Shown here: positions 4,329 through 26,616 of the stretch, piece by piece
Layout of the letters: each line of letters opens with the position of its first letter
Numbering within the stretch: position 1 is the stretch's first letter
NCBI RefSeq assembly: GCF_020510425.1
Contig: NZ_JAHBAH010000001.1
Coordinates: forward strand, 186,001 to 250,000
Direction of reading: 5' to 3'
DNA: 64,000 nt
From: Quatrionicoccus australiensis
GTDB taxonomy: Bacteria > Pseudomonadota > Gammaproteobacteria > Burkholderiales > Rhodocyclaceae
Notes under the pieces: model-generated
Databases searched by the model: none
Told to the model about the DNA's origin: nothing
The model's input: the letters and a program-made list of their open reading frames with translations, nothing else
Position numbers and translations under genes: made by a program

Positions 4329-4349
4329 GCGAACGCCAGGAAACGCATC

Positions 4350-5744
4350 ATGATCCACGCCTGCACCCTCGGCCTGCACCGCCATGTCTTCCCCGACCTC
4401 AAGGCGGTGCTGGCCAAGGCCAGTCCGGCCCGCTCCGGCGACATGCTGGCCGGCGTCGCCGCCGCCAGCGAGGAGGAACGGATGGCGGCGCGCCTCGTGC
4501 TCGCCGACATCCCGCTCGCCCACTTCCTCAACGAGGCGGTGATTCCCTACGAAGACGACGAAGTCACCCGCATCATCATCGACAGCCACGTCGCCGGCGC
4601 CTTCCTGCCGGTGGCCGGTCTGACGGTCGGCGAGTTCCGCGACTGGCTGCTTTCCGACGCCGCTGACACGGCCAGCCTGGCGGCGCTGGCGCCCGGCCTG
4701 ACGCCGGAGATGGTGGCGGCGGTGAGCAAGCTGATGCGCAACCAGGACCTGATCCTGGTCGCCGCCAAGTGCTCGGTCGTCACCCGTTTCCGCAACACCC
4801 TCGGCCTGCCCGGCCGGCTTGCGGTACGCCTGCAACCCAACCACCCGACCGACGATCCGCGCGGCATCACCGCCTCGATGCTCGACGGCCTTCTCTACGG
4901 CGCCGGCGACGCGGTGATCGGCATCAACCCGGCGACCGACAGCCTGCCGGCGATCACCGCCCTGCTCCGCCTGATCGACGATTTCCGCGAGCAGTACGCG
5001 GTGCCGACGCAAAGCTGCATCCTGACCCACGTCACCAATACGCTGCGTGCCATCGACCAGGGCGCGCCGGTCGATCTGGTCTTCCAGTCGATAGGCGGCA
5101 GCGAGGGCGTCAACAGCAGTTTCGGCGTGTCCGCGGCGCTGCTCGACGAGGCCAATGCGGCGGCGCGCGAACTCGGGCGCGGCACGCTCGGCAACAACGT
5201 GATGTATTTCGAAACCGGCCAGGGCAGCGCGCTGTCGGCCAACGCCCACCACGGCGTAGACCAGCAGACCATAGAGGCGCGCGCCTACGGCCTGGCGCGG
5301 CGTTACCAGCCGCTCTTGGTCAATACCGTGGTCGGCTTCATCGGCCCGGAATATCTCTACGACGGCAAGCAGATCATCCGCGCCGGCCTCGAGGACCATT
5401 TTTGCGGCAAATTGCTCGGCCTGCCGATGGGCTGCGACATTTGCTACACCAACCATGCCGAAGCCGACCAGGACGACATGGACACCCTGCTCACGTTGCT
5501 CGGCGTCGCCGGCATCAATTTCATCATCGGCGTGCCCGGCGCCGACGACATCATGCTCAATTACCAGAGCACCTCCTTCCACGACGCGCTCTACCTGCGC
5601 CGCGTGCTCGACCGCCGCCGTGCGCCGGAATTCGAGGAATGGCTGGAGAAGATGCGCATCACCGACTACCGCGGCGAACTGCTCGCCCAAAGCAGCCAGT
5701 ACCCGCTGCTCGGGCTGGCCGAAAGCATCCAGGAGGCGCCATGA
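4350..5744 (+). CDS. eutB: Ethanolamine ammonia-lyase large subunit (adenosylcobalamin-dependent)
   Basis: This 464-residue protein matches the full length of EutB, the catalytic TIM-barrel subunit that converts ethanolamine to acetaldehyde and ammonia using adenosylcobalamin. Characteristic stretches are GDAVIGINPATDS, LDLVFQSIGGSEG-like sequence (here VDLVFQSIGGSEG), YFETGQGSALSA and GLPMGCDICYTNHAEAD. CAGGAAAC precedes the ATG. The stop overlaps the eutC start (ATGA), giving translational coupling. No shell-protein genes are nearby, so this is a cytosolic, microcompartment-free pathway like that of pseudomonads. Confidence 0.97.
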   Translation: MIHACTLGLHRHVFPDLKAVLAKASPARSGDMLAGVAAASEEERMAARLVLADIPLAHFLNEAVIPYEDDEVTRIIIDSHVAGAFLPVAGLTVGEFRDWLLSDAADTASLAALAPGLTPEMVAAVSKLMRNQDLILVAAKCSVVTRFRNTLGLPGRLAVRLQPNHPTDDPRGITASMLDGLLYGAGDAVIGINPATDSLPAITALLRLIDDFREQYAVPTQSCILTHVTNTLRAIDQGAPVDLVFQSIGGSEGVNSSFGVSAALLDEANAAARELGRGTLGNNVMYFETGQGSALSANAHHGVDQQTIEARAYGLARRYQPLLVNTVVGFIGPEYLYDGKQIIRAGLEDHFCGKLLGLPMGCDICYTNHAEADQDDMDTLLTLLGVAGINFIIGVPGADDIMLNYQSTSFHDALYLRRVLDRRRAPEFEEWLEKMRITDYRGELLAQSSQYPLLGLAESIQEAP

Positions 5745-6595
5745 GCCAAAAACCGGCCATCCTGACGCCCGACCCCTGGCAGCAACTGCAAGGCCTGACG
5801 CGCGCCCGCGTCGCCCTCGGCCGCGCCGGCGTCAGCCTGCCGACGCGCGAGGTGCTGCGCTTCGGGACGGCACATGCCCAGGCGCGCGATGCGGTGCACA
5901 CGGCGCTCGACGTCGATCTGCTCGCCAGCGAATTGCAGGCCGACGGCTTCCGGACCCTCGCCGTACAAAGCCAGGCCGCCGACCGCGCCACTTACCTACG
6001 CCGCCCCGATTACGGGCGCCGACTCGCGCCAGCCTGTAGCGGTCGACTCGCCGAAAACGGCAAAAACCACTGGCCGGCCCGACCGCGGCTGGCCATCGTC
6101 GTCGCCGACGGCCTGTCCTCGCTGGCGACCAGCAGCCATACGCGGGCATTTCTCGCCGCCCTGCGCGCGCACATCCCTGACCTGAGCAGCCAGCCGCTGA
6201 TTATCGCCACCCAGGCGCGCGTCGCGCTCGGCGACGAGATCGGCCATCTGCTCGGCGCCGAGCAGGTCGTGGTCTTGATCGGCGAGCGGCCCGGCCTGTC
6301 GTCGCCGGACAGTCTCGGCCTCTACCTGAGCGCCGGGCCGCGCCCCGGCCTCAACGACGCACAGCGCAACTGCATCTCGAACGTCCGGCCGGAAGGCCTG
6401 CCCTACGCCGAGGCAGCACGCAAGCTCGCCTTCCTGATCGACGGCGCGCGCCGCCTTGGCCGCACCGGCGTCGATCTCAAGGACGACAGCGACGCGCCGG
6501 CGCTGGCCACTGCGGAAACCGGGCCGCGCCTCGCCGCGCCGGAAACCGCCCCACCTTTTTTTCCCACCTTGAACCTCCTGGAGATCCCTGCATGA
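5741..6595 (+). CDS. eutC: Ethanolamine ammonia-lyase small subunit
   Basis: This 284-residue protein contains the EutC cobalamin-binding core (DGFRTLAVQSQAADRATYLRRPD, LAIVVADGLSS, SNVRPEGL). It is the partner subunit of EutB. The ATG at 5741 follows AGGAGG and overlaps the eutB stop by 4 bp. Two oddities are visible. Residues about 97-112 (SGRLAENGKNHW) fall where relatives have variable sequence, and the underlying DNA carries a GGTCGAC/AAAA element motif. There is also a C-terminal extension of about 35 residues rich in Ala and Pro. The stop overlaps the next ATG. Confidence 0.95.
   Translation: MSQKPAILTPDPWQQLQGLTRARVALGRAGVSLPTREVLRFGTAHAQARDAVHTALDVDLLASELQADGFRTLAVQSQAADRATYLRRPDYGRRLAPACSGRLAENGKNHWPARPRLAIVVADGLSSLATSSHTRAFLAALRAHIPDLSSQPLIIATQARVALGDEIGHLLGAEQVVVLIGERPGLSSPDSLGLYLSAGPRPGLNDAQRNCISNVRPEGLPYAEAARKLAFLIDGARRLGRTGVDLKDDSDAPALATAETGPRLAAPETAPPFFPTLNLLEIPA
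6035..6075. repeat. Possible GTCGAC-type element inside eutC
   Basis: GCGGTCGACTCGCCGAAAA then CGGCAAAAACCACTGG lies in frame within eutC. It resembles one arm and the A-tract core of the dispersed element, and it coincides with a variable loop between the YLRRPD and LAIVVADG blocks. The second arm is missing, so it may be coincidence. Confidence 0.35.
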
Positions 6596-7446
6596 CATCC
6601 TCTTCCCGCAAGCTGCGCGCCGCCGTCCTGCTCGCCCTCACCGCGACCGCTATCGGCACTGCCGCCCCGGCCCTGGCCGACGGCGACGCCGCCTGGACCT
6701 TCCCGGTCAATGTCGGCGTCGTCAGCGACTACATCTTCCGCGGCCAGTCGCAGACCTGGGGCAAGCCCGCCCTGCAGGTCAGCGCCGAAGCCGATCACGC
6801 TTCCGGCGCCTACATCGGCGTCGCCGCTTCCAACGTTTCCGATCACTGGCTGCCCGGCGCCACTGTCGAGCTCGACATCTACGGCGGCTATCGCGGCAAG
6901 ATCGCCGACACCGTCGGCTACGACATCGGCCTGATCTACTACACCTATCCCGGCGCCAACTGGAGCGATTCGGTGTTCACCGGCTTCAATGCCAAGAACA
7001 GCCTGAACACGCTGGAAGCCTCGGTGGCGTTCAGCTACGAGTGGCTGACCTTCAAGACCGGCGCCACGCTGACCGAGTATTTCGGCTGGAGCACCAACAA
7101 CTCGCCGACCAATGGCGGTTTCTTCGGCGACGCCGCGGCCGGCGTCACCGGCAGCACGCGCTACTCGCCTTTCGTCGAACTCAATGCCGCCTATGAAGTG
7201 GCCGAAGGCTGGACGGTCAACGGCCAGCTCGGGCATCAAATGATCCGCCACTCGACCGGTCTCGACATCACCTACTTCAAGGCCGGCGTCAGCAAGGCCT
7301 TCGCCGACGGCTGGACGGTCGGCGCCTCCTACTCGGTGTCGAGCGAACCGAACGCCTACAAGAACTTCCTGAGCCTAGCCAACGGCACCTCGGCCTCCGA
7401 CATCGCCCGCGACAAGTTCTTCGTCAGCGTGAACAAGGCCTTCTGA
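6592..7446 (+). CDS. TorF-family putative outer-membrane porin
   Basis: This 284-residue protein has a cleavable signal peptide (cleavage near AAPALA-DG, residue 29). A beta-barrel sequence follows, with alternating aromatic strands and a C-terminal Phe, as outer-membrane proteins have. The opening VGVVSDYIFRGQSQT is the hallmark of the Gcw_chp/TorF family. It overlaps the eutC stop by 4 bp, so it is translated with the ethanolamine genes and is likely an outer-membrane entry route for ethanolamine or a related amine. That substrate is inference. A strong terminator follows. Confidence 0.9.
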   Translation: MTSSSRKLRAAVLLALTATAIGTAAPALADGDAAWTFPVNVGVVSDYIFRGQSQTWGKPALQVSAEADHASGAYIGVAASNVSDHWLPGATVELDIYGGYRGKIADTVGYDIGLIYYTYPGANWSDSVFTGFNAKNSLNTLEASVAFSYEWLTFKTGATLTEYFGWSTNNSPTNGGFFGDAAAGVTGSTRYSPFVELNAAYEVAEGWTVNGQLGHQMIRHSTGLDITYFKAGVSKAFADGWTVGASYSVSSEPNAYKNFLSLANGTSASDIARDKFFVSVNKAF

Positions 7447-7460
7447 GCCAGCAAATGCAA

Positions 7461-7495
7461 CGGGGCCGGGCTGTGATGCCCGGCCCCGCTTTTTT
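7461..7495 (+). terminator. Rho-independent terminator ending the eut operon
   Basis: GGGGCCGGGC, a 6-nt loop, GCCCGGCCCC, then GC and a T6 tract. The perfect 10-bp GC stem starts 15 bp after the porin stop. Confidence 0.93.
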
Positions 7496-7520
7496 GTCTT
7501 GTCCGGCGCCGCGTGCCGGC

Positions 7521-8525
7521 TCAGGCACAGACCTGCAAACTGGCACTGCGTTGCCGCTTGGCGGCATACATTCTCTGGTCGGCGACTTCCAGGAGTTGTT
7601 CGATTTCCAGACCGTCGACCGTGCTGATCGCCGAACCGATGCTGCCGCGCAATTCGTATTCCTTGTCCTCGAACGCAAAGCGCGCCTGAATTTCGCTGTC
7701 GATGCGCTGCACGGCCGTATCGACATCCCTGGGTTGTTCGACCGCGGTCAGCAGTACGCCGAACTCGTCGCCCCCCAGACGCGCCACGGTGTCGGAACTG
7801 CGCGTTCCCTCCCTGATGCGGTTGGCGAACTCGATGATCACGGCGTCACCAACCCGGTGACCATGCGTATCGTTGATCTGTTTCAGGCCATCCATATCGA
7901 TGATCAGCACCCCGATCGGGCGATTATCACGCTCGCTCTGCAACACGGTGCTGCGCAGCCTATCCATGAACAGGGCACGATTGGCCAGACCGGTCATGCT
8001 GTCGTGGGTGGCCTGGTGGAACAACTCGTCGATGTCGTAGCGCACCGAGTTGTACATCGCAGCCGCGATGACCTCCGACAACATGCCGAGCAGGACCACG
8101 CCAGCTGACGAAAACCTGTTTGGCTGCGCCGCCATCGCCTTCAGGACACCGACCGTGACGCCCTTGTGCTGCAGAGGCATGACCAGCATCGAGCGCAGAC
8201 CGACCAGGCGACAGGCGGCCCGGTCGACGCGGGGATCGGCCTCGGAATCGGGACAATTGAGAATTTCGCCGGAGCGCACACACAAGCCGGACAGGCTGCC
8301 GTCTATCTTCAGGCGCAGGCCGATCTGCTCCTTGGCGATGCCGGCCGTGGCGCGGTAGACCATCTCATCGCCTTCGGCGAGTTCAACGGCCGCCCCGTCT
8401 GCGCTGATCAGGGAAAGAACCTGTTCAACGACAAATCCCATGATGTCACCCAGGCCCAGCCCGAGCCTGGCAATCTCGGTCTGAATCCGAATGACCTGCA
8501 TCAGTTGATCCGTGGATGGTGGCAT
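7521..8525 (-). CDS. GAF-GGDEF diguanylate cyclase
   Basis: This protein of about 334 residues has an N-terminal GAF sensor domain (about residues 25-165) and a C-terminal GGDEF domain. The active-site motif is intact (RLGGDEFGVLL), and an RxxD inhibitory site (RSSD) stands five residues before it. It should therefore make cyclic-di-GMP with product feedback. No membrane segment is present. The ATG at 8525 has AGCAGG at good spacing; ATG 8531 is an alternative, and the ORF is open to 8678 without a better start. It converges on the eut operon, and the terminator at 7461 separates the two. Confidence 0.92.
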   Translation of the reverse strand: MPPSTDQLMQVIRIQTEIARLGLGLGDIMGFVVEQVLSLISADGAAVELAEGDEMVYRATAGIAKEQIGLRLKIDGSLSGLCVRSGEILNCPDSEADPRVDRAACRLVGLRSMLVMPLQHKGVTVGVLKAMAAQPNRFSSAGVVLLGMLSEVIAAAMYNSVRYDIDELFHQATHDSMTGLANRALFMDRLRSTVLQSERDNRPIGVLIIDMDGLKQINDTHGHRVGDAVIIEFANRIREGTRSSDTVARLGGDEFGVLLTAVEQPRDVDTAVQRIDSEIQARFAFEDKEYELRGSIGSAISTVDGLEIEQLLEVADQRMYAAKRQRSASLQVCA

Positions 8526-8634
8526 TTCCATACCTGCTGGCTTAGAGACAATCGGGTATTCTGGCGCAGAATATATTACGAAAGCAATATACTGCGTATC
8601 GCGGAGCGAATTACCGAAAACCAGGCAGGAAAGG

Positions 8635-9942
8635 CTACTTTTCCGGCTCTTCCGCCGGAATGATCCGGACCAGCACAATGCGCGGCCCGGTCATCTTTTT
8701 CACCACGGCATCGAACTGCGGGAAGGAGATGCGCTGGCCTTCCTCGGGCAGATCGCCGAGTTGCTGCAGGATCAGACCGCCAACCGAATCGACGCCGGCT
8801 TCGTCGATGTCGATGCCGAGTGCGCGTTCCAGCGTGAAGATGGGCAGGCTGCCCTTGCCGATCAGCGAACCATCGTCGAGCTTGGACCACTCGTTGTGGG
8901 TCTGCCGGAACTCGTCGCGAATCTCGCCGACCAGCGCGCCGAGCAGGTTGTCGAGCGTGATGAAGCCGATCGGATGGCCGTCGCCGTAGGCGACCACGGC
9001 GAAATGCGGCGCGCCCTGGCGGAAGCGGCGGAACAGCTCGGTCGCCGACAGGTTGGGCGAAACGATCATCACCGGCCGCACCAGCTTGTCGAGCGAGGCG
9101 AGGTCCGGGTCCTTGCGCAGCGCGATGAAAATGTCCTTCAAATGGATGACGCCCTTGGCCTGCCCGTCGTCGGCGAGATAGGGATAGCGGCTGAAGCGGT
9201 GCAGTACGATGCGCTCCAGACTGAGTTCGATATCGTCGCTGGCCGACAGCGGAATGGCTTCGTTGAACGGGCGCATCAGGTCGGCGACGTTGAGATCGCG
9301 GAAATCGAGGGCCTGGGCGAGAACCCGCCATTCGTCGCCGGCAAAGTCGGCATCGGCGCGCGAGGCGCGCAGGATGAGCTTGAGTTCCTCGGCCGAGTAA
9401 TGGCTGTCATGACCGGCCTGCACGTCGAGGTGCACCTTGCGCAGCACCCAGTTGGCGCTGTGGTTGAGCACCCAGATCGCCGGATACATCGCCCAGTAGA
9501 AGGCGTAAAGGCCGGGCGCCGTCCACAGGCCGACTTTCTCGGTGATGCGGATCGCCATCGATTTCGGGGCCAGTTCGCCGACCACGATGTGCAGGTAGGA
9601 AATGATGAAGAAGGCGACCGCGAAGGCGATGCCGTGGATCAGCTCCTCGCTCGTCATGCCGAGCGCGCCGAGGAAAGGCCGCAGCAGGTCGGCAAAGGCC
9701 GGTTCGCCGACCCAGCCGAGACCGAGCGAGGCGAGCGTGATGCCGAGCTGGCAGGCCGACAGGTAGGCTTCGAGATCCTGGTGCACTTTGGCAAGGATGC
9801 GACCCCGCCAACCGTAAGTCTTGGCAATCGCCTTGACCCGGCTCGGCCGCAGCTTGACCAGGCCAAACTCTGCCGCCACGAAAAAACCGTTCAGAACAAC
9901 GAGAACGAGCGCAACCACAACCAGCAAAAAGCTACTACCCAT
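8635..9942 (-). CDS. CNNM/CBS/CorC-domain membrane protein (HlyC/CorC family)
   Basis: This protein of about 435 residues has an N-terminal DUF21/CNNM membrane domain (four hydrophobic segments, opening SSFLLVVVALVLVVLNGFFV). A CBS pair follows (LMRPFNEAIPLSASDD and PVMIVSPNLSATELF), and a C-terminal CorC_HlyC domain ends near RIVLVRI. Members are linked to magnesium/cobalt efflux or polyamine export (PaeA/YtfL). The ATG at 9942 begins directly before the first membrane helix. A GTG at 9969 with AAGGAAAG upstream is an alternative start. The gene is probably monocistronic. Confidence 0.9.
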   Translation of the reverse strand: MGSSFLLVVVALVLVVLNGFFVAAEFGLVKLRPSRVKAIAKTYGWRGRILAKVHQDLEAYLSACQLGITLASLGLGWVGEPAFADLLRPFLGALGMTSEELIHGIAFAVAFFIISYLHIVVGELAPKSMAIRITEKVGLWTAPGLYAFYWAMYPAIWVLNHSANWVLRKVHLDVQAGHDSHYSAEELKLILRASRADADFAGDEWRVLAQALDFRDLNVADLMRPFNEAIPLSASDDIELSLERIVLHRFSRYPYLADDGQAKGVIHLKDIFIALRKDPDLASLDKLVRPVMIVSPNLSATELFRRFRQGAPHFAVVAYGDGHPIGFITLDNLLGALVGEIRDEFRQTHNEWSKLDDGSLIGKGSLPIFTLERALGIDIDEAGVDSVGGLILQQLGDLPEEGQRISFPQFDAVVKKMTGPRIVLVRIIPAEEPEK

Positions 9943-10029
9943 AACGCGGACACGGGATGTGCCCTGCACCTTTCCTTGAATTCGAGTGGCGTAATAGTAC
10001 CGGAGCCGGGCCGGTTTCCATCAGCCAGC

Positions 10030-10051
10030 GCCGGGGATGCCCCGGCTTTTT
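10030..10051 (+). terminator. Terminator-like hairpin, plus-strand orientation
   Basis: GCCGGGG-ATG-CCCCGGC is followed by T5. The T-tract lies on the plus strand although both flanking genes are on the minus strand, and it abuts the GTCGAC element at 10052. It may belong to the repeat or stop antisense transcription. Confidence 0.45.
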
Positions 10052-10094
10052 ACGGTCGACGCCGGAAAAACAGGCATTTTCCGACGTCGACCGC
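10052..10094. repeat. GTCGAC-bounded dispersed element, full copy
   Basis: ACGGTCGACGCCGG, an A5 tract, CAGGCA, a T4 tract, then CCGACGTCGACCGC. It lies 7 bp downstream of the msrAB-type gene. It is one of the two best-formed copies, with both arms and the A/T core present. Confidence 0.75.
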
Positions 10095-10101
10095 TGGGCG
10101 G

Positions 10102-11445
<1,344 letters not shown>

Positions 11446-11601
11446 TGCTTGCCTTTCGCTGGCGGAGAAAGCCGGCCGGCAAGTTCGCCGGCGCGCCGCC
11501 CTTCGCCTGTGGTGGACGGCCTGATTGCTCAGTGGTTCCCTTTAGTCGCCGGCGCGGGCGGATTTCTTACAGGCGGATCACGATTTATTGCTGGTCATGC
11601 A

Positions 11602-11697
11602 AACCCCTCCCCGGCCCTCCCCTTGTCAGGGGAGGGAGGCCAAGCTGACGCTGGAAGCGCTGACGCCTCCCCTGACAAGGGGAGGTTGGGAGGGGTT
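11602..11697. repeat. 96-bp inverted-repeat element (AACCCCTCCC type)
   Basis: The left arm AACCCCTCCCC...CCTCCCCTTGTCAGGGGAGG and the right arm CCTCCCCTGACAAGGGGAGG...GGGAGGGGTT are near-perfect inverted copies around a short centre. Each arm is itself a hairpin. It occupies the noncoding gap 11446-11919, where I see no gene. It is non-autonomous and MITE- or REP-like. Confidence 0.75.
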
Positions 11698-11919
11698 AAA
11701 GGCCCGGCGAAGCGGTACCGGTGCACAGATATGTGATCATTCAAAGATCGTGGGCTGCTTCTTGGAACCGACCGAAAATACCCGAAAATCCGCTGTTCAC
11801 CATGAAGTACACCGGCCCTCAGGATCTCCGCGCGCACGCGGCCTGCAGCAGACCGCTGACCGCGTCGCAAAGTTGTAGTAGCCTTGCGCCCCCTTTCGAC
11901 GTCGAACCTGGCCCTGATC

Positions 11920-12696
11920 ATGACGCGTGAATTGCACCGCGCCACCTTCAACCGCTCTGCCCTCGTCCGCGTCCTGTCCGACACCCTCCCCAATGTCGCC
12001 GAGCCGAAATACGACTTCGGCGAACGCCTCGGGCAATGGCTGGACTTCTCGGATGCGCTGACGCTGTTTTCGGTCCTCAATCACGAGGCCGGCGGCAACA
12101 CGTCCGCGCCGTCCGCCAATGCCGACCTGGCAGGCCAGCTGGCGCGGGTGCGCGGCAACCTGAGCGCTTCGATCCAGAACGATGGCGTGTTCAACCCCGC
12201 GCCATCCGACAGCCCGGTCCGCATTCCCTTTCCGACGCCGCTGCCGAATGCGACTGCCGACAGCGCCGCCGACTTCTCGCCCTACCACCGCTACTACCTC
12301 GCCCACCAGCGCGACATGAACGCCGCGATCACGGCGCTGCGCGCCAATGCCCGCAAGGCGCTGGCCGCTCAGTCGGCAGCCGGACGAAAACTCGCCGACC
12401 TCGACGCCACCTTCGAAAAAATCCTCGCCGTCCGCGAGCGCAACCTGCTGAGCAACATACCCATCCTGCTCGGCAAACGCTTCGATCAGCGCTACGCCGA
12501 ACACCGTGCCGCCCTGGCCGATGGCCAAACCGATGATCCTGCTGACTGGACGCAGGCCGGCAGCTGGCTCGACGCCTTCTGCCACGATGCCCAGACCATG
12601 CTGCTCGCCGAACTGGAACTGCGCCTCAAACCGGCCGCCGGCCTGATTGCCGCCGCCGGCAGCGCGAGTGAATCTATGGAAACAAAGCCCCAATGA
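11920..12696 (+). CDS. DUF3348 family protein, first gene of a motor-like operon
   Basis: This 258-residue soluble protein with no signal peptide matches the DUF3348 proteins of beta- and gammaproteobacteria, which begin with a RxxLVRxLSD-type motif (here RSALVRVLSDTLPN). It contains SPYHRYYLAHQRDMNAAI in the middle and a helical C-terminus. The function is unknown. The stop codon overlaps the DUF802 start (ATGA), so the two are translationally coupled. The ATG at 11920 is preferred over a TTG at 11884; neither has a strong ribosome binding site. It probably acts as a cytosolic partner of the membrane complex encoded next. Confidence 0.85.
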   Translation: MTRELHRATFNRSALVRVLSDTLPNVAEPKYDFGERLGQWLDFSDALTLFSVLNHEAGGNTSAPSANADLAGQLARVRGNLSASIQNDGVFNPAPSDSPVRIPFPTPLPNATADSAADFSPYHRYYLAHQRDMNAAITALRANARKALAAQSAAGRKLADLDATFEKILAVRERNLLSNIPILLGKRFDQRYAEHRAALADGQTDDPADWTQAGSWLDAFCHDAQTMLLAELELRLKPAAGLIAAAGSASESMETKPQ

Positions 12697-19091: not shown

Positions 19092-19490
19092 CTATTCCCC
19101 TGCAGCCAAATCCGCCACAGCGTAGTTCAACTGGCGTTGATGTTTGACGGCGAGTAGCACCGCTTCCGTCTCGGCATGCGCATAGAGCACGATATGTTGG
19201 CCGACGACATACTCCCGCAGGTAGGGCAATCCCGCTTGTTCGGCCAAGTTCAGGACTGTCTCCGATTTCAGCCGGGCTTGCGCTGATTTCGCCATCAGAA
19301 ACCTGGCCGGTCGTCCGCCGGCTGGTGACCATGCCAGCACAGCGATCATCTCCCGCAGATCGGCTTTCAACCTGGCGAACCGGGAATCGGCGGTATCCGC
19401 GTCCTGAGTCTGGAAGAATTGATGAATGCTTTCCAGATTGGCCAGAAAGTTGGGCGTTGCCTCGACTTTGGCATTGTTCGGCAGCGCCAT
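19092..19490 (-). CDS. RelE/ParE-type toxin of a type II toxin-antitoxin system
   Basis: This 132-residue protein has the RelE/ParE superfamily layout: N-terminal helices (NFLANLESIHQFF), a central strand with GRPARFLM, and a C-terminal sheet with LPYLREYVVGQHIVLYAH ending in a hydrophobic strand. It starts 3 bp after the antitoxin stop, the usual antitoxin-first order. Whether it acts as an mRNA interferase or a gyrase poison cannot be decided here. Confidence 0.8.
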   Translation of the reverse strand: MALPNNAKVEATPNFLANLESIHQFFQTQDADTADSRFARLKADLREMIAVLAWSPAGGRPARFLMAKSAQARLKSETVLNLAEQAGLPYLREYVVGQHIVLYAHAETEAVLLAVKHQRQLNYAVADLAAGE

Positions 19491-19493
19491 GCT

Positions 19494-19769
19494 TCAGGCC
19501 AGGGCTTTCAGAAGTTCGGCATTCGACACGCGCTGACCGGCCAACACCTCGCGCAGGCCGGTTTCCGCCTCGGACAGCAGCACCAGGTTGGCGTGTTCCG
19601 CTTCCAGCGCATGGTAGTAATCCAGCTTTTTGGCGTCGACGATGGCGACATAGGCGGTGCCGTTCTTGGTCAGCAGCTTTTCCGCGCCGGCGACGACTTC
19701 ATCGGACAATTCAGTCAGGCGTGCGCGGGCTTCGCTGATCGGAACGACATCCTGGGCGCTGAAAGTCAT
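19494..19769 (-). CDS. Phd/YefM-type antitoxin
   Basis: This 91-residue protein opens with the Phd/YefM DNA-binding element (VVPISEARARLTELSDEV) and continues KLLTKNGTAYVAIVDAKK. The C-terminal helix should bind and neutralise the toxin. AAGGAATCAA precedes the ATG, and a perfect palindrome lies 12 bp upstream of the start, the expected autoregulatory site. Confidence 0.85.
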   Translation of the reverse strand: MTFSAQDVVPISEARARLTELSDEVVAGAEKLLTKNGTAYVAIVDAKKLDYYHALEAEHANLVLLSEAETGLREVLAGQRVSNAELLKALA

Positions 19770-20360: not shown

Positions 20361-21512
20361 TCAATCCCAGGCCAGCGCCCCACCCGTCTGGTATTCGGTG
20401 ACGCGCGTCTCGAAGAAGTTTTTCTCCTTCCTCAGATTGGCCTGCTCGTCCAGCCAGGGCAGCACGTTTTCGGCGCCGGGGAAAGGTTCCTCGACACCCA
20501 CCTGCCGCGCCCGCCGGTTGGCGACGAAGCGGAATTGCTGGACGTGCAGGTCGGCGTTGTAGCCGAGAATCGGTTCGCGCAGGATGTAGCCGGCGTAGGC
20601 ACGCTCGGCGGCTTCGGCTTCGTCCCAGAGCGTACGCAGGGCCTGCGGGTCGAGTTCCAGGTTTTCTTCCTTGAGCAGTTCGCGCACGACGCGGATGCCG
20701 AAGGCGCAGTGCAGCACCTCGTCGCGCATGATGTATTGCAACTGCTCGGCGGTGCCCTTCATCAGGCCGCGCCGCTGCAGCGCGAAGATCGGCGTGAAAC
20801 CGTTGTAGAACCAGCAGCCTTCGAAGATCACCGCGAAGAAGAAATAGGACAGCGCGAATTCGTGCAGGTTGGCGCGGTCGGTGAGGTCGAAGTCGGCGCG
20901 AATGACGCGCTCCAGCCGCCGATTGGCCAGTGCGATCTTGCCGTGGATTTCGGGCACGACGCGGTAGCGGTTGTAGATTTCCTGCTGGTCGAGGCCGATG
21001 CTTTCGATGCAGTGCTGGTAGGTCCAGGTGTGCAGCGCTTCTTCATAGACCTGGCGGGCCTGGTAGATCTGCAGTTCGGGCGCGCTCATCTTCTCCATCA
21101 CCGCCAGGCCGATGTTGCGCATGGCAAGGATGTCGGAGGTGGTCAGGTAGGCGAGCACGTTCTCGAAGACGTGGCGCTCGGCCGGGCTGAGCTTGTGGTG
21201 GTAGTCGTGCACGTCCTGCGCCATGCCGATTTCGAGCGGTGTCCAGTGGTTGCGGTTGGCCTTGAGGAAGAACTCCCAGGCCCACGGGTACTTGAACGGC
21301 GCTAGCTGGTTGATGTCGGCCTTGCCATTGACGATGCGCTTGTCCGCCGCGTTGACCGGCGCCAGGGCCGGCGTGCCGACTTGATCAGGAATGGCCGGCG
21401 CCACGCGGTCGACCGCGGTTTTTGCGGCATTTTCAAGGTTGACCGCCGGGCTTTGCGGGGCGGCGGGTTGCGACGGGGTGTCCCAGTCGTCGAAGCGGAA
21501 GGCGGCATTCAT
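20361..21512 (-). CDS. nrdB: Ribonucleotide reductase class I beta subunit
   Basis: This 383-residue protein is the radical-generating subunit. Metal ligands are visible in DVHDYHHKLSPAERH, EEALHTWTY (Glu, His and the tyrosyl-radical Tyr at +4 from His), FFAVIFEGC and RDEVLHCAF. The start is the ATG at 21512 with GAGG upstream; the longer open frame to 21698 lies in the neighbour. The first 75 residues are a Pro- and Ala-rich extension not found in E. coli NrdB, and their DNA holds a GTCGAC-type element. It is the last gene of the riboswitch-led unit. Confidence 0.95.
   Translation of the reverse strand: MNAAFRFDDWDTPSQPAAPQSPAVNLENAAKTAVDRVAPAIPDQVGTPALAPVNAADKRIVNGKADINQLAPFKYPWAWEFFLKANRNHWTPLEIGMAQDVHDYHHKLSPAERHVFENVLAYLTTSDILAMRNIGLAVMEKMSAPELQIYQARQVYEEALHTWTYQHCIESIGLDQQEIYNRYRVVPEIHGKIALANRRLERVIRADFDLTDRANLHEFALSYFFFAVIFEGCWFYNGFTPIFALQRRGLMKGTAEQLQYIMRDEVLHCAFGIRVVRELLKEENLELDPQALRTLWDEAEAAERAYAGYILREPILGYNADLHVQQFRFVANRRARQVGVEEPFPGAENVLPWLDEQANLRKEKNFFETRVTEYQTGGALAWD
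21405..21447. repeat. GTCGAC-bounded element inside the nrdB N-terminal extension
   Basis: GCGGTCGACCGCGG, T5, GCGGCA, T4, CAAGG, TTGACCGCC. Both arms and the A/T core of the intergenic copies are kept, with one arm mutated from GTCGAC to GTTGAC. It is translated within the linker that precedes the nrdB catalytic domain (VNLENAAKTAVDRV). Confidence 0.6.
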
Positions 21513-21531
21513 GATGGTTTGAACCTCGGTG

Positions 21532-23142
21532 TCAGTCGGTGCGAACGGCCCGGAAGCGCTGACGGCGATTCCAGTCCACGTAGAAGATGCCGCCCTCGGC
21601 GGCGGTGAAGCTGTGCAGGCGCTTGCCCTTGAGCGAGACGGCACTCTGCCCCAGCGAGAAATCGAGTTCCGGCTCGCGGCCGCCGCGATTGACGGCAATC
21701 AGCGGCAGGCCGGTTTCACGCGAGCGCTTTTCCCAGACGTCGCCCGGCCCCATGCCCTCGACCGGAGGCCAGTTGGCCGGCGAGAGCAGGATTTGCGCAC
21801 CGCGCGCCGCGAGCTGGGCAGCCGCGTCGGGACGCCAGGCGTCGGCGCAGATCAGCGTGCCGACGGCGATGCCATCGACCATGAAGGGCGTGCCTTCCGT
21901 GCCGGCCAGCGACCAGGCTTCGGCCTGGCCGACCGGGCGCTGCTTGCGGTAGGCGCCGAGAATGCGCCCGCTGCGGTCAATGGCGGCGACGCTGTTGTGG
22001 AGCTTGCCGGTCTGCGCATCGCGCTCGGCGAAACCGACGAAGAGCGCGACGCCGTTGTCACGCGCGATGGCGGCCAGGCTGCTGATCCAGGCATCGGGGA
22101 AAGGCGCGATCCAGTCGGTGCCGACGCGCTTGGCGAAGTTGTAGCCGGTTTCGGCCAGTTCCGGCGTCACCACCCAGTCGGCGCCGTGGCGCACGGCGGC
22201 GCGGATGCCGGCTTCGATGCGCATCCGGTTGCCGGCAATGTCGCCCGGCACGGGATCGAGATGCAGCAAGGCGAGACGCAGATCGCCGGCGGCTTTCGCC
22301 GGGCCGGCCGCGGCGTCGCCGAAGCGCTTGCTGCCGGGCAGGAAATAGCCGTTCTGCTTGCCGAGCGCCTCGACCACCGCCGCGTAGGTCGCCTTGCCGA
22401 TCAGCTCGCCGATGCGGCTGTGACCGCCGGTGTAGGTGGCGCGCGGCGCCGCCGTGCCGGAAACGACGATGATGCTGTCGGTGCCGGTGCCAGTCGCCTG
22501 CACGTCCTTGGTGTAGCTGCTCGGCACCTTGAGGTCTTCGAGCGCCGCCGTCTTGCCCTCGGTGATGGTGATCAGGGCGCGGGCCAGCGCCGCGTCGCTG
22601 AGTTCGATGTTGGCCAGAACCATGATGTTGATGGTGCCGGCAGGTTCCTCTCCTTCGATGTAGGCGCCGGCATCGACGCCGGTGCGGATGGCGTTGCTCT
22701 TCGCCCCGGCCGTGGCCAGCACGGTCACCGTCAGCGGGCCGTGCCGGCGCGTGACGACGGCGAGATTGTCCATGTCGGCCGCTGTGGACATCTCGGCGAC
22801 GGCGGCCGGCGGCAGTTGCAGACGACCCGCCGTCGCGGCGCGCCTTTCTTCGCTATAGCGCTTGCCGTCGGCGCCGAGCTTCATCCAGAGCAGCGGATGC
22901 GCCGCCTGGTTGAGCGCAGCGCGCGCCGTGAGCGGGCCATCGCTGGTCGACAAGGCACGCCGTTCGCCAGCAAAGCGCACGACCAGGGTCTTTTCCCAGA
23001 GGCCGTCGCGCTCGCTACGGTCGACCTGCGCCGTGGCACCGATTTCGGCCGGCAAATCGAGGTCGACCGCCAGGGCGATGGCAGGCAGCGCCAGCAACAG
23101 GGCCAGCGCCGGACGCAGGCAGGAAGCGAAGAAGGATTTCAT
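21532..23142 (-). CDS. Secreted CbiZ (adenosylcobinamide amidohydrolase)-nitrilase fusion
   Basis: This 536-residue two-domain protein has an N-terminal signal peptide (residues 1-25, AIALA-V). Residues about 35-265 match CbiZ (STSDGPLTARAALNQA, RTGVDAGAYIEGEEPAGTINI, YTGGHSRIGELIGKA), the enzyme that cuts adenosylcobinamide to adenosylcobyric acid in B12 salvage. Residues about 285-530 are a carbon-nitrogen hydrolase with the Glu-Lys-Cys triad at about E328 (TPELAETGY), K400 (AYRKQ) and C432 (TLICADAWRPD). It sits between nrdA and nrdB, 20 bp from nrdB, under a cobalamin riboswitch. A periplasmic CbiZ would be unusual. The joint substrate is unknown; two-step amide cleavage of corrinoid side chains is a guess. 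Confidence 0.85.
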   Translation of the reverse strand: MKSFFASCLRPALALLLALPAIALAVDLDLPAEIGATAQVDRSERDGLWEKTLVVRFAGERRALSTSDGPLTARAALNQAAHPLLWMKLGADGKRYSEERRAATAGRLQLPPAAVAEMSTAADMDNLAVVTRRHGPLTVTVLATAGAKSNAIRTGVDAGAYIEGEEPAGTINIMVLANIELSDAALARALITITEGKTAALEDLKVPSSYTKDVQATGTGTDSIIVVSGTAAPRATYTGGHSRIGELIGKATYAAVVEALGKQNGYFLPGSKRFGDAAAGPAKAAGDLRLALLHLDPVPGDIAGNRMRIEAGIRAAVRHGADWVVTPELAETGYNFAKRVGTDWIAPFPDAWISSLAAIARDNGVALFVGFAERDAQTGKLHNSVAAIDRSGRILGAYRKQRPVGQAEAWSLAGTEGTPFMVDGIAVGTLICADAWRPDAAAQLAARGAQILLSPANWPPVEGMGPGDVWEKRSRETGLPLIAVNRGGREPELDFSLGQSAVSLKGKRLHSFTAAEGGIFYVDWNRRQRFRAVRTD

Positions 23143-23194
23143 CGAAATGTCTCGTGATACGGAAAGGCGGCAAGCTTAACCCGGCCGGCAACGC

Positions 23195-23364
23195 ACCCCC
23201 TCCTCTTCAAGGGGGTGGAGGCGGGGTTTGGCAGAGCACTGCTCTGCCCCGCCGGAACGGGCTGGCTGTGCAAAGCCAGCCCTCCGACAGGGGGGATGGG
23301 TCTCGCCGAGCAGACGCAATGCGACCCATCCCCCTCCCTGCCTCCCCCTTGAAGGGGGAGGAGT
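23195..23364. repeat. Multi-hairpin inverted-repeat element between nrdA and the CbiZ gene
   Basis: About 170 bp with nested inverted repeats: an outer pair (CCTCTTCAAGGGGG and CCCCCTTGAAGGGGG), GGCAGAGCA/TGCTCTGCC, GGCTGGCTTT-like/AAAGCCAGCC, and GGGGGATGGGTC/GACCCATCCCCC. It fills the 240-bp gap inside the operon and would fold strongly in the transcript, so it may lower or process downstream mRNA. Confidence 0.7.
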
Positions 23365-23383
23365 TTCGCGGCCGGACTTTTCG

Positions 23384-26155
23384 TCACTGACACGCCTCAC
23401 AAGTCGGATCATCGATCGCACAGAACTTAGGCGCCTCTTCCTGCACCACGGAGTCGTCGCGCCCGCCCGCCTTCTCGGCCTGGCTGGCGCCGAGCGTGCG
23501 CAGGTAGTAGGTGGTTTTCAGGCCGCGCGTCCAGGCCAGCTTGTAGATCTCATCGAGTTTCTTGCCGGAAGGCAGCGCCAGATAGAGGTTCAGCGATTGC
23601 GCCTGGTCGATCCATTTCTGCCGGCGCGCTGCCGCTTCGATCAGCCACACCGGGTCGATCTCGAAGGCCGTCGCGTAGCGGGCCTTGAGTTCGTCCGGCA
23701 CGCGCTCGATGCGGGCCAGCGAGCCGTCGAAATACTTGAGGTCGGCGACCATCACTTCGTCCCACAGATCGAGCGCTTTCAGGTCGCGAACCAGCGCGTC
23801 ATTCACCACGGTGAACTCGCCGGAGAGGTTGGATTTGACGTAGATGTTCTGGTAGGTCGGCTCGATGCTGGCCGAGACGCCGACGATATTGGAGATGGTC
23901 GCGGTCGGCGCAATCGCCACGCAGTTGGAATTGCGCATGCCGTAACGGGCGATGCGTTCCTTGAGCGCGTTCCAGTCGAGACTGGATTCCCGATTTACCT
24001 CGAGATAGCCGCCCCGCCCTGCCTCCAGCAGCCGGATCGAATCAAGCGGCAAAATGCCCTGGTCCCACAGGCTGCCGGTGAAGCTCGAATAACGGCCACG
24101 CTCGCGGGCCAGTTCGCTCGATGCCGAGTAGGCGTGGTAGCAGACGGCTTCCATGGTCTGGTCGGCGAACTCCACCGCAGCGGTCGACGCGTAAGGCAGG
24201 CCGATTTCGTACAGGCAATCGGCAAAACCCATGATGCCGAGGCCGACCGGGCGATGCCGCAGGTTGGCGTTGCGCGCCTTGGGCGTCGCGTAGAAGTTGA
24301 TGTCGACCACGTTGTCGAGCATGCGCAGCGCGGTGTTGATCGTGCGCGCCAGTTTGGCCTGGTCGAGTTGGCCGTCCTTCAGATGCGCCAGCAGATTGAC
24401 CGAACCGAGATTGCAGACGGCAGTTTCCGAGTCGGACGTGTTCAGCGTGATCTCGGTACACAGATTCGAGCTATGCACGACACCGACGTGCTGCTGCGGC
24501 GAGCGCAGGTTGCAGGCATCCTTGAAGGTGATCCACGGATGGCCGGTTTCGAAGAGCATGGTCAGCATCTTGCGCCACAGTTGGACAGCGGGGATTCTCT
24601 TGTGCAGCTTGAGTTGACCGCTGGCCGCCTGCGCTTCGTAGCCGAGGTAGGCGACCTCGAATTCGGCGCCGCACAATTCGTGCAGATCGGGCACGTCGAC
24701 CGGCGAGAACAGCGTCCACTCGGCATTTTCCATGACCCGCCGCATGAACAGATCGGGAATCCAGTTGGCGGTGTTCATGTCGTGCGTGCGGCGGCGCTCG
24801 TCGCCGGTGTTCTTGCGCAGATCGAGGAATTCCTCGATGTCGAGGTGCCAGGTCTCGAGATAGGCACAGACCGCGCCCTTGCGCTTGCCGCCCTGGTTCA
24901 CGGCGACCGCCGTGTCGTTGACCACTTTCAGGAAGGGAATCACGCCCTGGCTCTGGCCGTTGGTGCCCTTGATCCGGCTGCCCAGCGAACGCACCGGCGT
25001 CCAGTCGTTGCCGAGGCCGCCGGCGTACTTCTGCAGCAGGGCGTTTTCCTTGATCGATTGATAGATGCCTTCGAGATCGTCGGCCACCGTCGTCAGGTAG
25101 CACGACGACAGTTGCGAATGCAGCGTCCCGCTGTTGAACAGCGTCGGCGTCGAGCACATGAAATCGAAACTCGAAATCAGGTCGTAGAACTCGATGGCGC
25201 GCGCTTCGCGGTCGATTTCGTTGAGCGCCAGGCCCATCGCGACACGCATGAAGAAAATCTGCGGCAACTCGATGCGCCGCCCTTCGATGTGCAGGAAGTA
25301 ACGGTCGTACAGCGTCTGCAGGCCGAGGTAGCCGAACTGCAGGTCGCGCTCGGGTTTCAGCGCGGCAGCAAGGCGCGGCAGATCGTAGGTGGCAAGGCGC
25401 GGATCGAGCAGTTCGGCGGCGATGCCCTGCTTGATGAAAACGGGCAGATATTCGCCGTTGACCGCTGCGAGTTCGTCCAGCGTCACCGGCCGGCCGAGCA
25501 CTTCGCGGCCCAGGCTGGCCAGCAGCAGGCGGGCGGTAACCTGGTTGTAGGCCGGCTCGCGCTCGATCAAGGTGCGCGCGGCAAGGATCAGCGCCTGGTA
25601 AACGTCGGCCAGCGGCACGCCGTCGTAGAGATTCTTCAGGGCGCTGTCGAAGATGGCCCGGGCCGAAACCACGTCACCCAGACCGGCACAGGCGGCTTCG
25701 CAATTCTTCAGCAACAAGGAGCGGTCGAGCGGCTTGCGCACGCCGTCGTCGAGCACATGCAGTTCGGCAACGCTGACCTCCTCGAGCTGGCTGGCCGCCC
25801 GCTCGGCGGCGCGGCGTTCGCGGTAGAGCACGTAAGCGCGCGCCACGTCGTGTTCGCCGGCGCGCATCAGCGCCAGTTCGACCTGGTCCTGGATGTCCTC
25901 GATATGCACCGTGCCGCCGTCCGGCGAGCGCCGGGTCAGCGAATTGACCACCGTCTGGGTCAGGCGGGCGACCAGTTCGCGGATGCGCGAGGACACCGAA
26001 CTCTGGCTGCCTTCGACGGCGAGAAAAGCCTTGCTCAGCGCAACGGCGATCTTGTCGGGATCGAAGGCGACGAGCGCGCCGTTGCGGCGGATGACCTGCA
26101 GGGCAGCTACCGCGAACTGGTTAGCGGCAGAGAGAGACTGGACATTGGATTGCAA
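23384..26155 (-). CDS. nrdA: Ribonucleotide reductase class I alpha subunit
   Basis: This 923-residue protein is the catalytic subunit reducing ribonucleoside diphosphates. An N-terminal ATP-cone lies at about residues 13-105 (RRNGALVAFDPDKI). The barrel has the active-site Cys residues in SQLSSCYLTT, NLCTEITLN and ETAVCNLGSVNL, the radical-path Tyr pair in KTTYYLRT, and the C-terminal redox pair DPTCEACQ. It is longer than E. coli NrdA (761). The start is a TTG at 26155 with GGAGAA 6 bases upstream; the ORF is open to 26254 without a comparable ribosome binding site. It lies 180 bp downstream of a cobalamin riboswitch. Confidence 0.95.
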   Translation of the reverse strand: MQSNVQSLSAANQFAVAALQVIRRNGALVAFDPDKIAVALSKAFLAVEGSQSSVSSRIRELVARLTQTVVNSLTRRSPDGGTVHIEDIQDQVELALMRAGEHDVARAYVLYRERRAAERAASQLEEVSVAELHVLDDGVRKPLDRSLLLKNCEAACAGLGDVVSARAIFDSALKNLYDGVPLADVYQALILAARTLIEREPAYNQVTARLLLASLGREVLGRPVTLDELAAVNGEYLPVFIKQGIAAELLDPRLATYDLPRLAAALKPERDLQFGYLGLQTLYDRYFLHIEGRRIELPQIFFMRVAMGLALNEIDREARAIEFYDLISSFDFMCSTPTLFNSGTLHSQLSSCYLTTVADDLEGIYQSIKENALLQKYAGGLGNDWTPVRSLGSRIKGTNGQSQGVIPFLKVVNDTAVAVNQGGKRKGAVCAYLETWHLDIEEFLDLRKNTGDERRRTHDMNTANWIPDLFMRRVMENAEWTLFSPVDVPDLHELCGAEFEVAYLGYEAQAASGQLKLHKRIPAVQLWRKMLTMLFETGHPWITFKDACNLRSPQQHVGVVHSSNLCTEITLNTSDSETAVCNLGSVNLLAHLKDGQLDQAKLARTINTALRMLDNVVDINFYATPKARNANLRHRPVGLGIMGFADCLYEIGLPYASTAAVEFADQTMEAVCYHAYSASSELARERGRYSSFTGSLWDQGILPLDSIRLLEAGRGGYLEVNRESSLDWNALKERIARYGMRNSNCVAIAPTATISNIVGVSASIEPTYQNIYVKSNLSGEFTVVNDALVRDLKALDLWDEVMVADLKYFDGSLARIERVPDELKARYATAFEIDPVWLIEAAARRQKWIDQAQSLNLYLALPSGKKLDEIYKLAWTRGLKTTYYLRTLGASQAEKAGGRDDSVVQEEAPKFCAIDDPTCEACQ

Positions 26156-26331
26156 GGCGATTCTCCGTATCGGGGGGCGGAGAACCGAGTGCGCGGACCG
26201 TTGGCGCAGGCCGACCGGTGCAACGGGAAGCATCCCGACCACGGCTCGACACAACGGACAAACGGCAAGAGACCACGCAAAAACCTCTCGTCAGGGACAC
26301 CCCGCCCCAAAATCATGAAAAAGGACACATT

Positions 26332-26516
26332 GAGGCAGGTCTCCTGGCTCTCGGCTCAGCGCGTTTCACCTGCCTTCCCGGACGCATCCAGTGGCATGAG
26401 TTGGCAAACTCGGTGGCGAAACGCTCGCCGATTACAGTTGCGGGGGCAGCCCCGGGATACAGGTCGAAGACCTGGCACCGGATTCCCTTTCAATCCCCTT
26501 GCGGGGAACCTTCAAT
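26332..26516 (-). ncRNA. Cobalamin (B12) riboswitch upstream of nrdA
   Basis: On the minus strand the conserved blocks appear in order: GGTTCCCC, AGGGAATCCGGTGCC, the B12-box region GGGGCTGCCCCCGCAACTGT, GCCACTGGATGCG, GGGAAGGCAGG and AGCCAGGAGACCTGCC. The first gene downstream is nrdA. In other bacteria B12 riboswitches repress class I reductase genes when a B12-dependent class II enzyme can take over. The element also covers the CbiZ-nitrilase gene downstream. About 180 nt separate its end from the nrdA start, with no clear terminator, so control may be translational. Confidence 0.95.
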
Positions 26517-26616
26517 GGACGGCAGTCTAAAGGGGGCGCGATGATGACGTCAAGCAAAAAACACTACATGCAGTAGATTTAGCCGAACTGGCTACTAAAT
26601 ACAGTAAAAACCCGGG

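Follow-up and report, generated by a model that had tools for sequence, protein, structure and literature searches.

The present study describes a unit of three genes on the minus strand of a 64,000-nucleotide stretch of the Quatrionicoccus australiensis genome (contig NZ_JAHBAH010000001.1, positions 186,001 to 250,000; hereafter, the window). The unit lies behind a cobalamin (B12) riboswitch and consists of nrdA and nrdB, which encode the large and small subunits of a class I ribonucleotide reductase, and, between them, a gene for a fusion of a CbiZ domain with a nitrilase-type amidase domain. The original prediction, made from the letters alone, had placed a riboswitch at the head of the unit and the fusion between the reductase genes, and both were confirmed. 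RF00174 matched over its full length (model positions 1-189) with 107.8 bits (gathering score, 31.5 bits), and PF01955 and PF00795 matched within one open frame between nrd genes whose families exceeded their cut-offs. The extent of the riboswitch required a small correction: the Rfam match begins 12 nt further upstream than predicted. We conclude that this is a real arrangement. Its features are listed in Table 1.

RF00174 was the sole Rfam match in the window at the gathering threshold; it immediately precedes nrdA and shares its strand. nrdA probably starts with the TTG at 26155, which is preceded by GGAGAATCGCC, and ends at 23384. The intergenic spacing is 241 nt between nrdA and the fusion gene and 19 nt between the fusion gene and nrdB. 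Since this order recurs in 13 genomes of the genus, with that of the window counted and three of them read over split contigs, the position of the fusion between nrdA and nrdB is not due to chance. A consensus scan of the region gave two promoter-like matches, with 0.7 expected by chance. The genome of the window comprises 4.3 Mb in two contigs and has a completeness rating of 100%.

Table 1. Features of the riboswitch-headed nrd unit in the window, in the direction of transcription
Feature	Position in the window	Strand	Basis
Sigma-70-like promoter match, TTGACG-18-TAGACT	26524..26553	-	Consensus scan, 9/12; predicted RNA start near 26517; weak
Cobalamin riboswitch aptamer RF00174, L5 stretch GCTGCCCCCGCAAC	26317..26528	-	107.8 bits, E 4.8e-26
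GGGGCGGGG element, probably the competing strand (L13) of the expression platform	26300..26308	-	Conserved in leaders; duplex energies
Hairpin CGGTTCTCCG / CGGAGAATCG over the nrdA ribosome-binding site	26158..26187	-	Pairing and shuffles across leaders
nrdA, class I ribonucleotide reductase large subunit	23384..26155	-	PF02867, PF00317, PF03477, NCBIfam NF005544, all over cut-off
Palindromic repeat element, nrdA-fusion gap	23196..23363	-	Fold of 23142-23390, z = -7.9; 0/200 shuffles equal
CbiZ + nitrilase (CN_hydrolase) fusion, apparently exported, 536 aa	21532..23142	-	PF01955 + PF00795, one open frame; aligned orthologues
Putative signal peptide of the fusion	23065..23142	-	Sec-type by eye; similar leaders in 17 aligned rows
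CbiZ domain (adenosylcobinamide amidohydrolase family)	22375..22977	-	PF01955, residues 56-256
Nitrilase-type amidase domain, Glu328-Lys400-Cys432	21574..22278	-	PF00795, residues 289-523
nrdB, class I ribonucleotide reductase small subunit	20361..21512	-	PF00268, NF005550, both over cut-off

The leader of nrdA

An alignment of 30 nrdA leaders contained two conserved blocks, the GGGGCGGGG-type element and a hairpin over the ribosome-binding site. The motif GGG(G/A)CGGGG occurred 6-10 nt after the aptamer in 29 of the 30 leaders. A pattern search found the hairpin over the GGAG before the start codon in 28 leaders; of the two that were missed, L068 escaped the pattern through an additional C in its loop, and L072 was different. 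In these 28 leaders, 26 of which were distinct, pairing extended to 94.2% of cells, versus 28-51% in slid versions of the hairpin, and none of 500 shuffles reached either this pairing or the covariation score, a test whose force is limited by the kinship of the leader sequences. The clearest change was at columns 12/33, where five sequences had GC in place of UA.

The L5 stretch GCTGCCCCCGCAAC was identical in the aptamers of all 30 nrdA leaders. In duplex calculations, GGGGCGGGG paired with L5 at -11.9 to -14.9 kcal/mol, depending on the length given, and with CTCCGCCCC, which comprises the 5' arm and loop of the hairpin, at -19.4 kcal/mol. By this computed complementarity between GGGGCGGGG and the hairpin, alternative structures of the expression platform are possible. 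A kissing loop between L5 and L13 that favors a hairpin over the ribosome-binding site is a published model (passages in PMC10653944 and PMC9600662), and the pairing options of the nrdA leader fit this model.

A terminator in the leader was rejected: no minus-strand terminator-like match was found between the aptamer and nrdA, and it is the ribosome-binding site that the conserved element masks. For these reasons, a translational platform is preferred, and the nrdA leader is probably a translational switch. The hairpin would act at the translation of nrdA; therefore, the control of the fusion gene 3 kb downstream would only be indirect. Effects on the genes located 3-5 kb downstream of the switch would then have to be exerted through polarity or message loss.

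The CbiZ-nitrilase protein

PF01955 matched the fusion over the whole profile (1-191 of 191) at 163.4 bits versus a cut-off of 27 bits, and PF00795 matched at 94.7 bits. The catalytic triad of the nitrilase superfamily (CN_hydrolase) is Glu-Lys-Cys; E328, K400, and C432 of the fusion were unvarying in all 17 aligned orthologue rows. The protein carries a putative signal peptide and is apparently exported. NF038002, the model of CbiS (CbiZ with alpha-ribazole phosphatase), was not matched at full length and reached 76.4 bits versus a cut-off of 250 bits, through the CbiZ part only. A search of the window's genome with the whole fusion yielded one other match, a nitrilase domain; a very divergent second CbiZ could escape this search.

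In a search of solved structures with the fusion, nitrilase-type amidases matched the C-terminal domain and no structure of a CbiZ domain was found. The closest solved structures were NAD synthetase, nitrilase/beta-ureidopropionase, and amidases, which do not settle the substrate of the nitrilase domain. A fimbrial subunit structure that matched in the CbiZ region (E 0.17) was taken as a chance match. An AlphaFold2 model of the fusion was set aside; its mean pLDDT (predicted local distance difference test) score was 58, most of residues 121-250 scored below 40, and only 17 similar sequences were available.

The action of the characterized CbiZ enzymes takes place inside the cell. Since the fusion looks exported, unlike these enzymes, we can only infer the step of cobinamide salvage that the original prediction ascribed to it. 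Passages in PMC7733943 and PMC3541065 describe CbiZ as a hydrolase of the aminopropanol amide in cobinamide or pseudocobalamin, present the characterized enzymes as active on adenosylated cobinamide or pseudocobalamin, and place some homologues near transporters.

The class I reductase and the nrdA-nrdB gap in the genus

The genus was sampled with 76 genomes (Azonexus/Dechloromonas by the names of matching records). nrdA was detected in 34 of them (E <= 1e-100) and nrdB in the same 34. The gene for the B12-dependent class II reductase, nrdJ, was present in 71 of the 76 and in all 51 of those with a completeness of 90% or more and a contamination of 5% or less. In the genome of the window, nrdJ occupies a 987-aa frame and scored 600 bits against a cut-off of 399.95, which bears out the class II enzyme presupposed by the original prediction. 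RF00174 was located just upstream of nrdA and on the same strand in 30 of the 30 nrdA loci fetched. In G017 and G071, the riboswitch precedes nrdA by coordinates, giving a total of 32 of 32 assessable genomes; the 5' end of nrdA lies off the contig in G006 and G075. The class I reductase is an accessory set in this genus and stands behind a B12 switch wherever its upstream region is visible.

The contents of the gap between nrdA and nrdB were read from forward frames that passed a codon-position GC filter and had a minimum length of 120 aa, by which small genes would be missed. nrdB directly followed nrdA in 10 of the 34 genomes. The fusion was found alone in six and together with a BtuF-like protein in five (two over split contigs), and the BtuF-like protein was found alone in another six (11 altogether). 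Three genomes (G029, G085, and G088) carried nrdD-nrdG, three (G086, G009, and G028) a set with a TonB receptor, and the gap was not visible in G094. In G086, the TonB receptor is accompanied by ExbB-like, DUF2149, CobN-family, and PepSY proteins and by the fusion. The gap is interrupted by contig ends in G009 and G028: CobN-family and PepSY pieces precede nrdB on another contig in G009, the fusion of which is encoded elsewhere, and the receptor follows nrdA in G028, with the fusion preceding nrdB on another contig. G075, a bin with 7% contamination, has an additional nrdD-nrdG-nrdB piece.

The BtuF-like protein had no Pfam match and one weak NCBIfam match, and its similarity by profile to iron-, heme-, and B12-binding proteins was weak. 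Homologues with approximately 40% identity are encoded between btuD and cobO of the uptake operons in L122, L124, L178, and L179. All readable gaps contained solely reductase genes or genes of the corrinoid/tetrapyrrole-uptake type. These patterns suggest that the riboswitch-controlled gap is likely to be a repeated landing place for B12-acquisition-type genes in this genus. The gene order behind the predicted coupling of the reductase to a built-in salvage gene recurs among relatives; however, the coupling is not confined to one gene, since the same slot is occupied in other genomes by genes of the uptake type and by a class III reductase.

Other locations of the fusion

The fusion was matched (E <= 1e-40) in 39 of the 76 genomes. 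The gene-order survey that had been suggested for the relatives placed it in the nrdA-nrdB gap in the 13 genomes referred to above, on a single contig in 10 (G000, G063, G016, G008, G031, G022, G010, G067, G062, and G086) and over split contigs in three. The fusion is divided between the nrdA- and nrdB-bearing contigs in G006, whereas in G071 and G028 it adjoins nrdB and the contig with nrdA is a separate one. In 21 other genomes, the fusion directly follows cobO in a B12-uptake operon; btuD was found in 18 and cbiA in 12 of these within 1.5-kb flanks. This second usual home supports the predicted link of the fusion with corrinoids. Six of the eight uptake-type loci scanned have a riboswitch ahead of the operon; the other two contigs (L043 and L050) begin inside the operon. 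The location is of the uptake type by coordinates in G088 and probably also in G094, through record L143. 6S RNA was noted within approximately 1 kb of the uptake-operon riboswitch in L044, L045, L046, L047, L048, and L049.

cobO was directly upstream in 21 of the 23 fusion loci outside nrd operons that were scanned for it, with G034 (L042) and G089 (L201) as the misses. The fusion of G034 adjoins the same exonuclease gene that flanks the operon in the window (74% identical). G089 lacks the CbiZ half and encodes a leader-bearing nitrilase half (L201 4200-5100), which is 74% identical to the C-terminal half of the fusion; by reading, it lies downstream of an argC-like frame. G091 contains fragments of the fusion and completes the 39 genomes. 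In the 13 genomes with the fusion in the nrd operon, cobO was found in 12 (not in G071), none of which had a fusion beside it, and cbiA follows cobO in six of these 12.

A tree of the fusion separated the nrd type (100/98) from the cobO type (100/98), and the Zoogloea sequences fell with the latter. Its 36 rows covered 10 of the 13 nrd-type sequences, 20 of the 21 cobO-type sequences plus record L151, G034, and four Zoogloea sequences; L025, L139 (Propionivibrio), L142 (Accumulibacter), and partial loci were left out. The root is the midpoint, with which a move from uptake to nrd operons, the reverse, and separate acquisition are not told apart. The contexts beside B12 genes outside the genus do no more than favor a move from the uptake operon to the nrd operon.

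An order-wide search with the fusion (399 genomes drawn evenly, cut-off 1e-35) yielded four genomes, all of this genus. A scan of contig records yielded 49 loci, the last of which is a weak nitrilase match, and added records with the names Zoogloea, Propionivibrio, and Accumulibacter to those that carry the fusion. Nine loci matched the CbiZ part alone, in records named Gammaproteobacteria, Pelobacter, Nitrospirae, Zoogloeaceae, Deltaproteobacteria, Syntrophaceae (two), Holophagaceae, and Thermodesulfobacteriota. Among these nine, leader peptides were read only in L148, L150, and L154, a cobalamin riboswitch was found in six (L147, L148, L149, L152, L153, and L155), and btuF-, btuC-, and btuD-like genes lie just downstream of CbiZ in L148, L152, and L153.

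L148, a metagenome-assembled genome of Pelobacter, shows the order riboswitch, nrdD, nrdG, CbiZ with a leader, riboswitch, btuB, btuF, btuC, and btuD (3743-12553; the btu names are partly by reading). Its CbiZ frame starts 22 nt after nrdG. The NrdD proteins of L148 and G088 share 73% identity, which leaves room for transfer or misbinning. L148 represents a second pairing of a reductase with CbiZ, although not surely an independent one.

CbiZ is encoded near ExbB-like and CobN-family proteins in G086/L120, L130, L139, L150, and L157; all but the last of these also have TonB receptors. As a side observation, sets of CbiZ (with or without nitrilase), ExbB-like, and CobN-family proteins span L182 3400-11951, L130 2068-9771, L139 6575-15593, L150 4401-14301, and L157 7001-13006, with TonB receptors except in L157; DUF2149 is present in the L182 set, the L139 set lies behind cobalamin riboswitches, and the sets resemble the Hmu heme system.

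B12 genes of the genome

The genome of the window contains eight cobalamin riboswitches. Pfam matches covered loop assembly, amidation, and adenosylation (CobD_CbiB, CobS, DBI_PRT, GATase_3/CbiA, and CobA_CobO_BtuR) and uptake (FecCD, a TonB receptor, and a periplasmic binding protein). The families for rebuilding corrinoids are therein represented by CobD_CbiB, CobS, the CobT type, CobQ/CbiA, and CobO. Genes for ring synthesis and cobalt transport were recognized by reading. As a separate observation, a ParE-like toxin and Phd/YefM-type antitoxin pair is encoded just downstream of nrdB (window 19092-19769).

Proposed mechanism and alternative explanations

We consider it fairly probable that the unit is a B12-shortage operon in which one switch governs a reductase bypass together with corrinoid salvage. 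When adenosylcobalamin is ample, the aptamer would be bound and L5 (CCCCC) would pair with GGGGCGGGG (L13). The hairpin over the ribosome-binding site would then be closed, nrdA would remain untranslated, the untranslated message would be lost downstream by polarity, and deoxynucleotides would be supplied by NrdJ. When B12 is low, GGGGCGGGG would pair with CTCCGCCCC in the hairpin and open the ribosome-binding site, and NrdA, the exported CbiZ-nitrilase, and NrdB would be produced, presumably from a single transcript. NrdAB would bypass the B12-dependent enzyme, and the CbiZ-nitrilase would cleave cobinamide or foreign cobamides as they arrive, on the way to cobyric acid; the nitrilase domain may contribute to this processing. 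Cobyric acid would be imported and rebuilt by CbiB, CobS, and CobT; B12 would rise and the operon would shut.

B12-dependent co-control of the operon is likely in view of the leaders and gene order. The original prediction held that low B12 switches on both the reductase and the salvage gene. The riboswitch before nrdA in all 32 assessable genomes agrees with this; however, the hairpin covers the nrdA site, and the CbiZ gene would be reached indirectly. The prediction also held that salvage restores B12. Because genes for ring synthesis and the nucleotide loop are present, the organism very probably makes B12, and salvage by CbiZ would therefore be a supplement to synthesis.

This capacity for synthesis is one of several points that weigh against our interpretation. 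Three pairs of the leader hairpin were changed on both sides, and 44 of 500 shuffles had as many; the seven further pair types were equaled by 222 of 500 shuffles. CbiZ is not known to work in the periplasm. The fusion is held in an uptake operon in at least 21 genomes and nrdB lies right after nrdA in 10, so nothing requires the linkage with the ribonucleotide reductase. G034 has the fusion without nrdA, nrdB, or a detected riboswitch. Outside the genus, one of the five Zoogloea fusion loci scanned (L128) and the Propionivibrio locus (L139) had a riboswitch, and the scan of the Accumulibacter locus (L142) found no cobalamin riboswitch. The best structural relatives of the BtuF-like protein by profile are iron- and heme-binding proteins. 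The receptor of G086 scored better for heme than for B12, both below the cut-off, and its TonB/CobN set may for this reason be heme-related; the ligands of the BtuF-like protein and of this set are uncertain. The strong palindrome between nrdA and the fusion could attenuate read-through in the genome of the window. Moreover, the whole account is drawn from sequence.

A broader version may be put forward more tentatively, and we regard it as possible rather than probable. The reductase operons of the genus may be modular B12-shortage islands, with one switch over a class I (in places class III) replacement and periplasmic corrinoid processing. In these islands, the exported CbiZ-nitrilase would dismantle scavenged cobamides before their uptake and rebuilding, and some lineages would add a CobN-like protein and their own TonB machinery.

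The gap may instead simply be a tolerant place behind a B12 riboswitch, with cargo that needs B12-repressed expression and draws no benefit from co-production with the reductase. The same fusion behind other B12 riboswitches, in six of the eight uptake-type loci scanned, is as expected from this explanation, as are the differences in cargo among genomes and its absence from 10 of 34. However, the cargo found was solely of the reductase or corrinoid/tetrapyrrole-uptake type, a point of unsure weight because the gaps surveyed were those of genus operons, riboswitch-headed where assessable. Furthermore, the CbiZ of L148 follows a different reductase, nrdDG, behind a riboswitch. We regard this explanation as rather unlikely, although it is the most serious competitor of the B12-shortage operon.

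Another explanation places the fusion of the window's genome outside riboswitch control: the palindrome would stop or process the message, and an internal promoter would drive the fusion and nrdB. The palindromic repeat occupies most of the nrdA-fusion gap, its structure is very stable (z = -7.9), and the leader hairpin covers only the start of nrdA. However, the consensus scan of the gap, which covered sigma-70-type promoters only, found no terminator-like or promoter-like match, and the stem of the palindrome, by reading, has no T-run after it and is not a standard terminator. nrdB, 19 nt after the fusion, would also be uncoupled from nrdA. In the nearest relative, G063, the gap is approximately 73 nt, namely, approximately 168 nt shorter than that in the window; the palindrome thus looks like a lineage-specific insertion. 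With this difference in length and a core that occurs at three sites in the genome, the palindrome was rejected as a part of the regulatory system. An internal promoter is improbable.

Slightly less probable again is that the exported fusion, with a CobN-like protein, degrades corrinoids by stripping side chains and perhaps the metal, for cobalt or to remove unusable analogues: CbiZ lies near ExbB-like and CobN-family proteins in the five loci named above and CobN-like HmuS is a heme de-chelatase (passages in PMC12583661), whereas no CobN-type set is found beside the fusion in the window or most genus loci, and the fusion after cobO in 21 genomes fits rebuilding.

Comparison with known systems

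The B12-shortage operon proposed here has a precedent in the Streptomyces nrdABS operon, which is under a B12 riboswitch (Borovok et al. 2006, as cited in PMC4991794). As described there, a cobalamin riboswitch stands over a class I reductase operon with a third gene in an organism that has NrdJ; however, the third gene follows nrdB and encodes an AraC-like regulator, and the control described is at the level of transcription. In contrast, the operon in the window has a corrinoid-type gene between nrdA and nrdB, and its platform looks translational. The CbiZ of Rhodobacter sphaeroides, a cobinamide/pseudocobalamin amidohydrolase, likewise matches PF01955 at full length and is associated with B12 transporter genes (passages in PMC7733943 and PMC3541065), whereas the fusion begins with a leader that resembles a signal peptide and ends in a nitrilase domain. 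The riboswitches of Escherichia coli btuB and Priestia megaterium metE share the C-rich L5, the G-rich partner after the aptamer, and, in the btuB type, a hairpin over the ribosome-binding site (passages in PMC10653944). Unlike these, the riboswitch in the window precedes nrdA, and its G-rich element is also complementary to that hairpin.

The MotA/ExbB-like and DUF2149 proteins of G086 presumably resemble other parts of the Hmu heme system. The insert of G086 shares with this system a TonB receptor (HmuR) and a CobN-family protein with a leader (HmuS de-chelatase; passages in PMC12583661), but differs in the CbiZ-nitrilase, the PepSY membrane protein, and its position behind a cobalamin riboswitch.

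We searched the open-licence literature, with subscription journals outside its scope, and found no paper that joins CbiZ with nitrilase or Azonexus with a riboswitch. Papers on Dechloromonas, cobalamin, and ribonucleotide reductase concerned other subjects by title and abstract, and an exported CbiZ was absent among the matches listed of a looser search. The coupling had been predicted to be undescribed. Riboswitch-controlled nrdAB is already known, but the cargo slot and the CbiZ-nitrilase were not met in that literature.

Since named Azonexus isolates (L114, L117, L118, and L159) carry the arrangement, these claims are directly testable. If our interpretation is true, the bypass and acquisition of B12 would be tied to one RNA sensor. 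It also provides a concrete prediction for an uncharacterized group of leader-bearing CbiZ proteins in records of several phyla. The recurring nrdA-nrdB slot would represent a natural experiment in the recruitment of genes to a riboswitch regulon.

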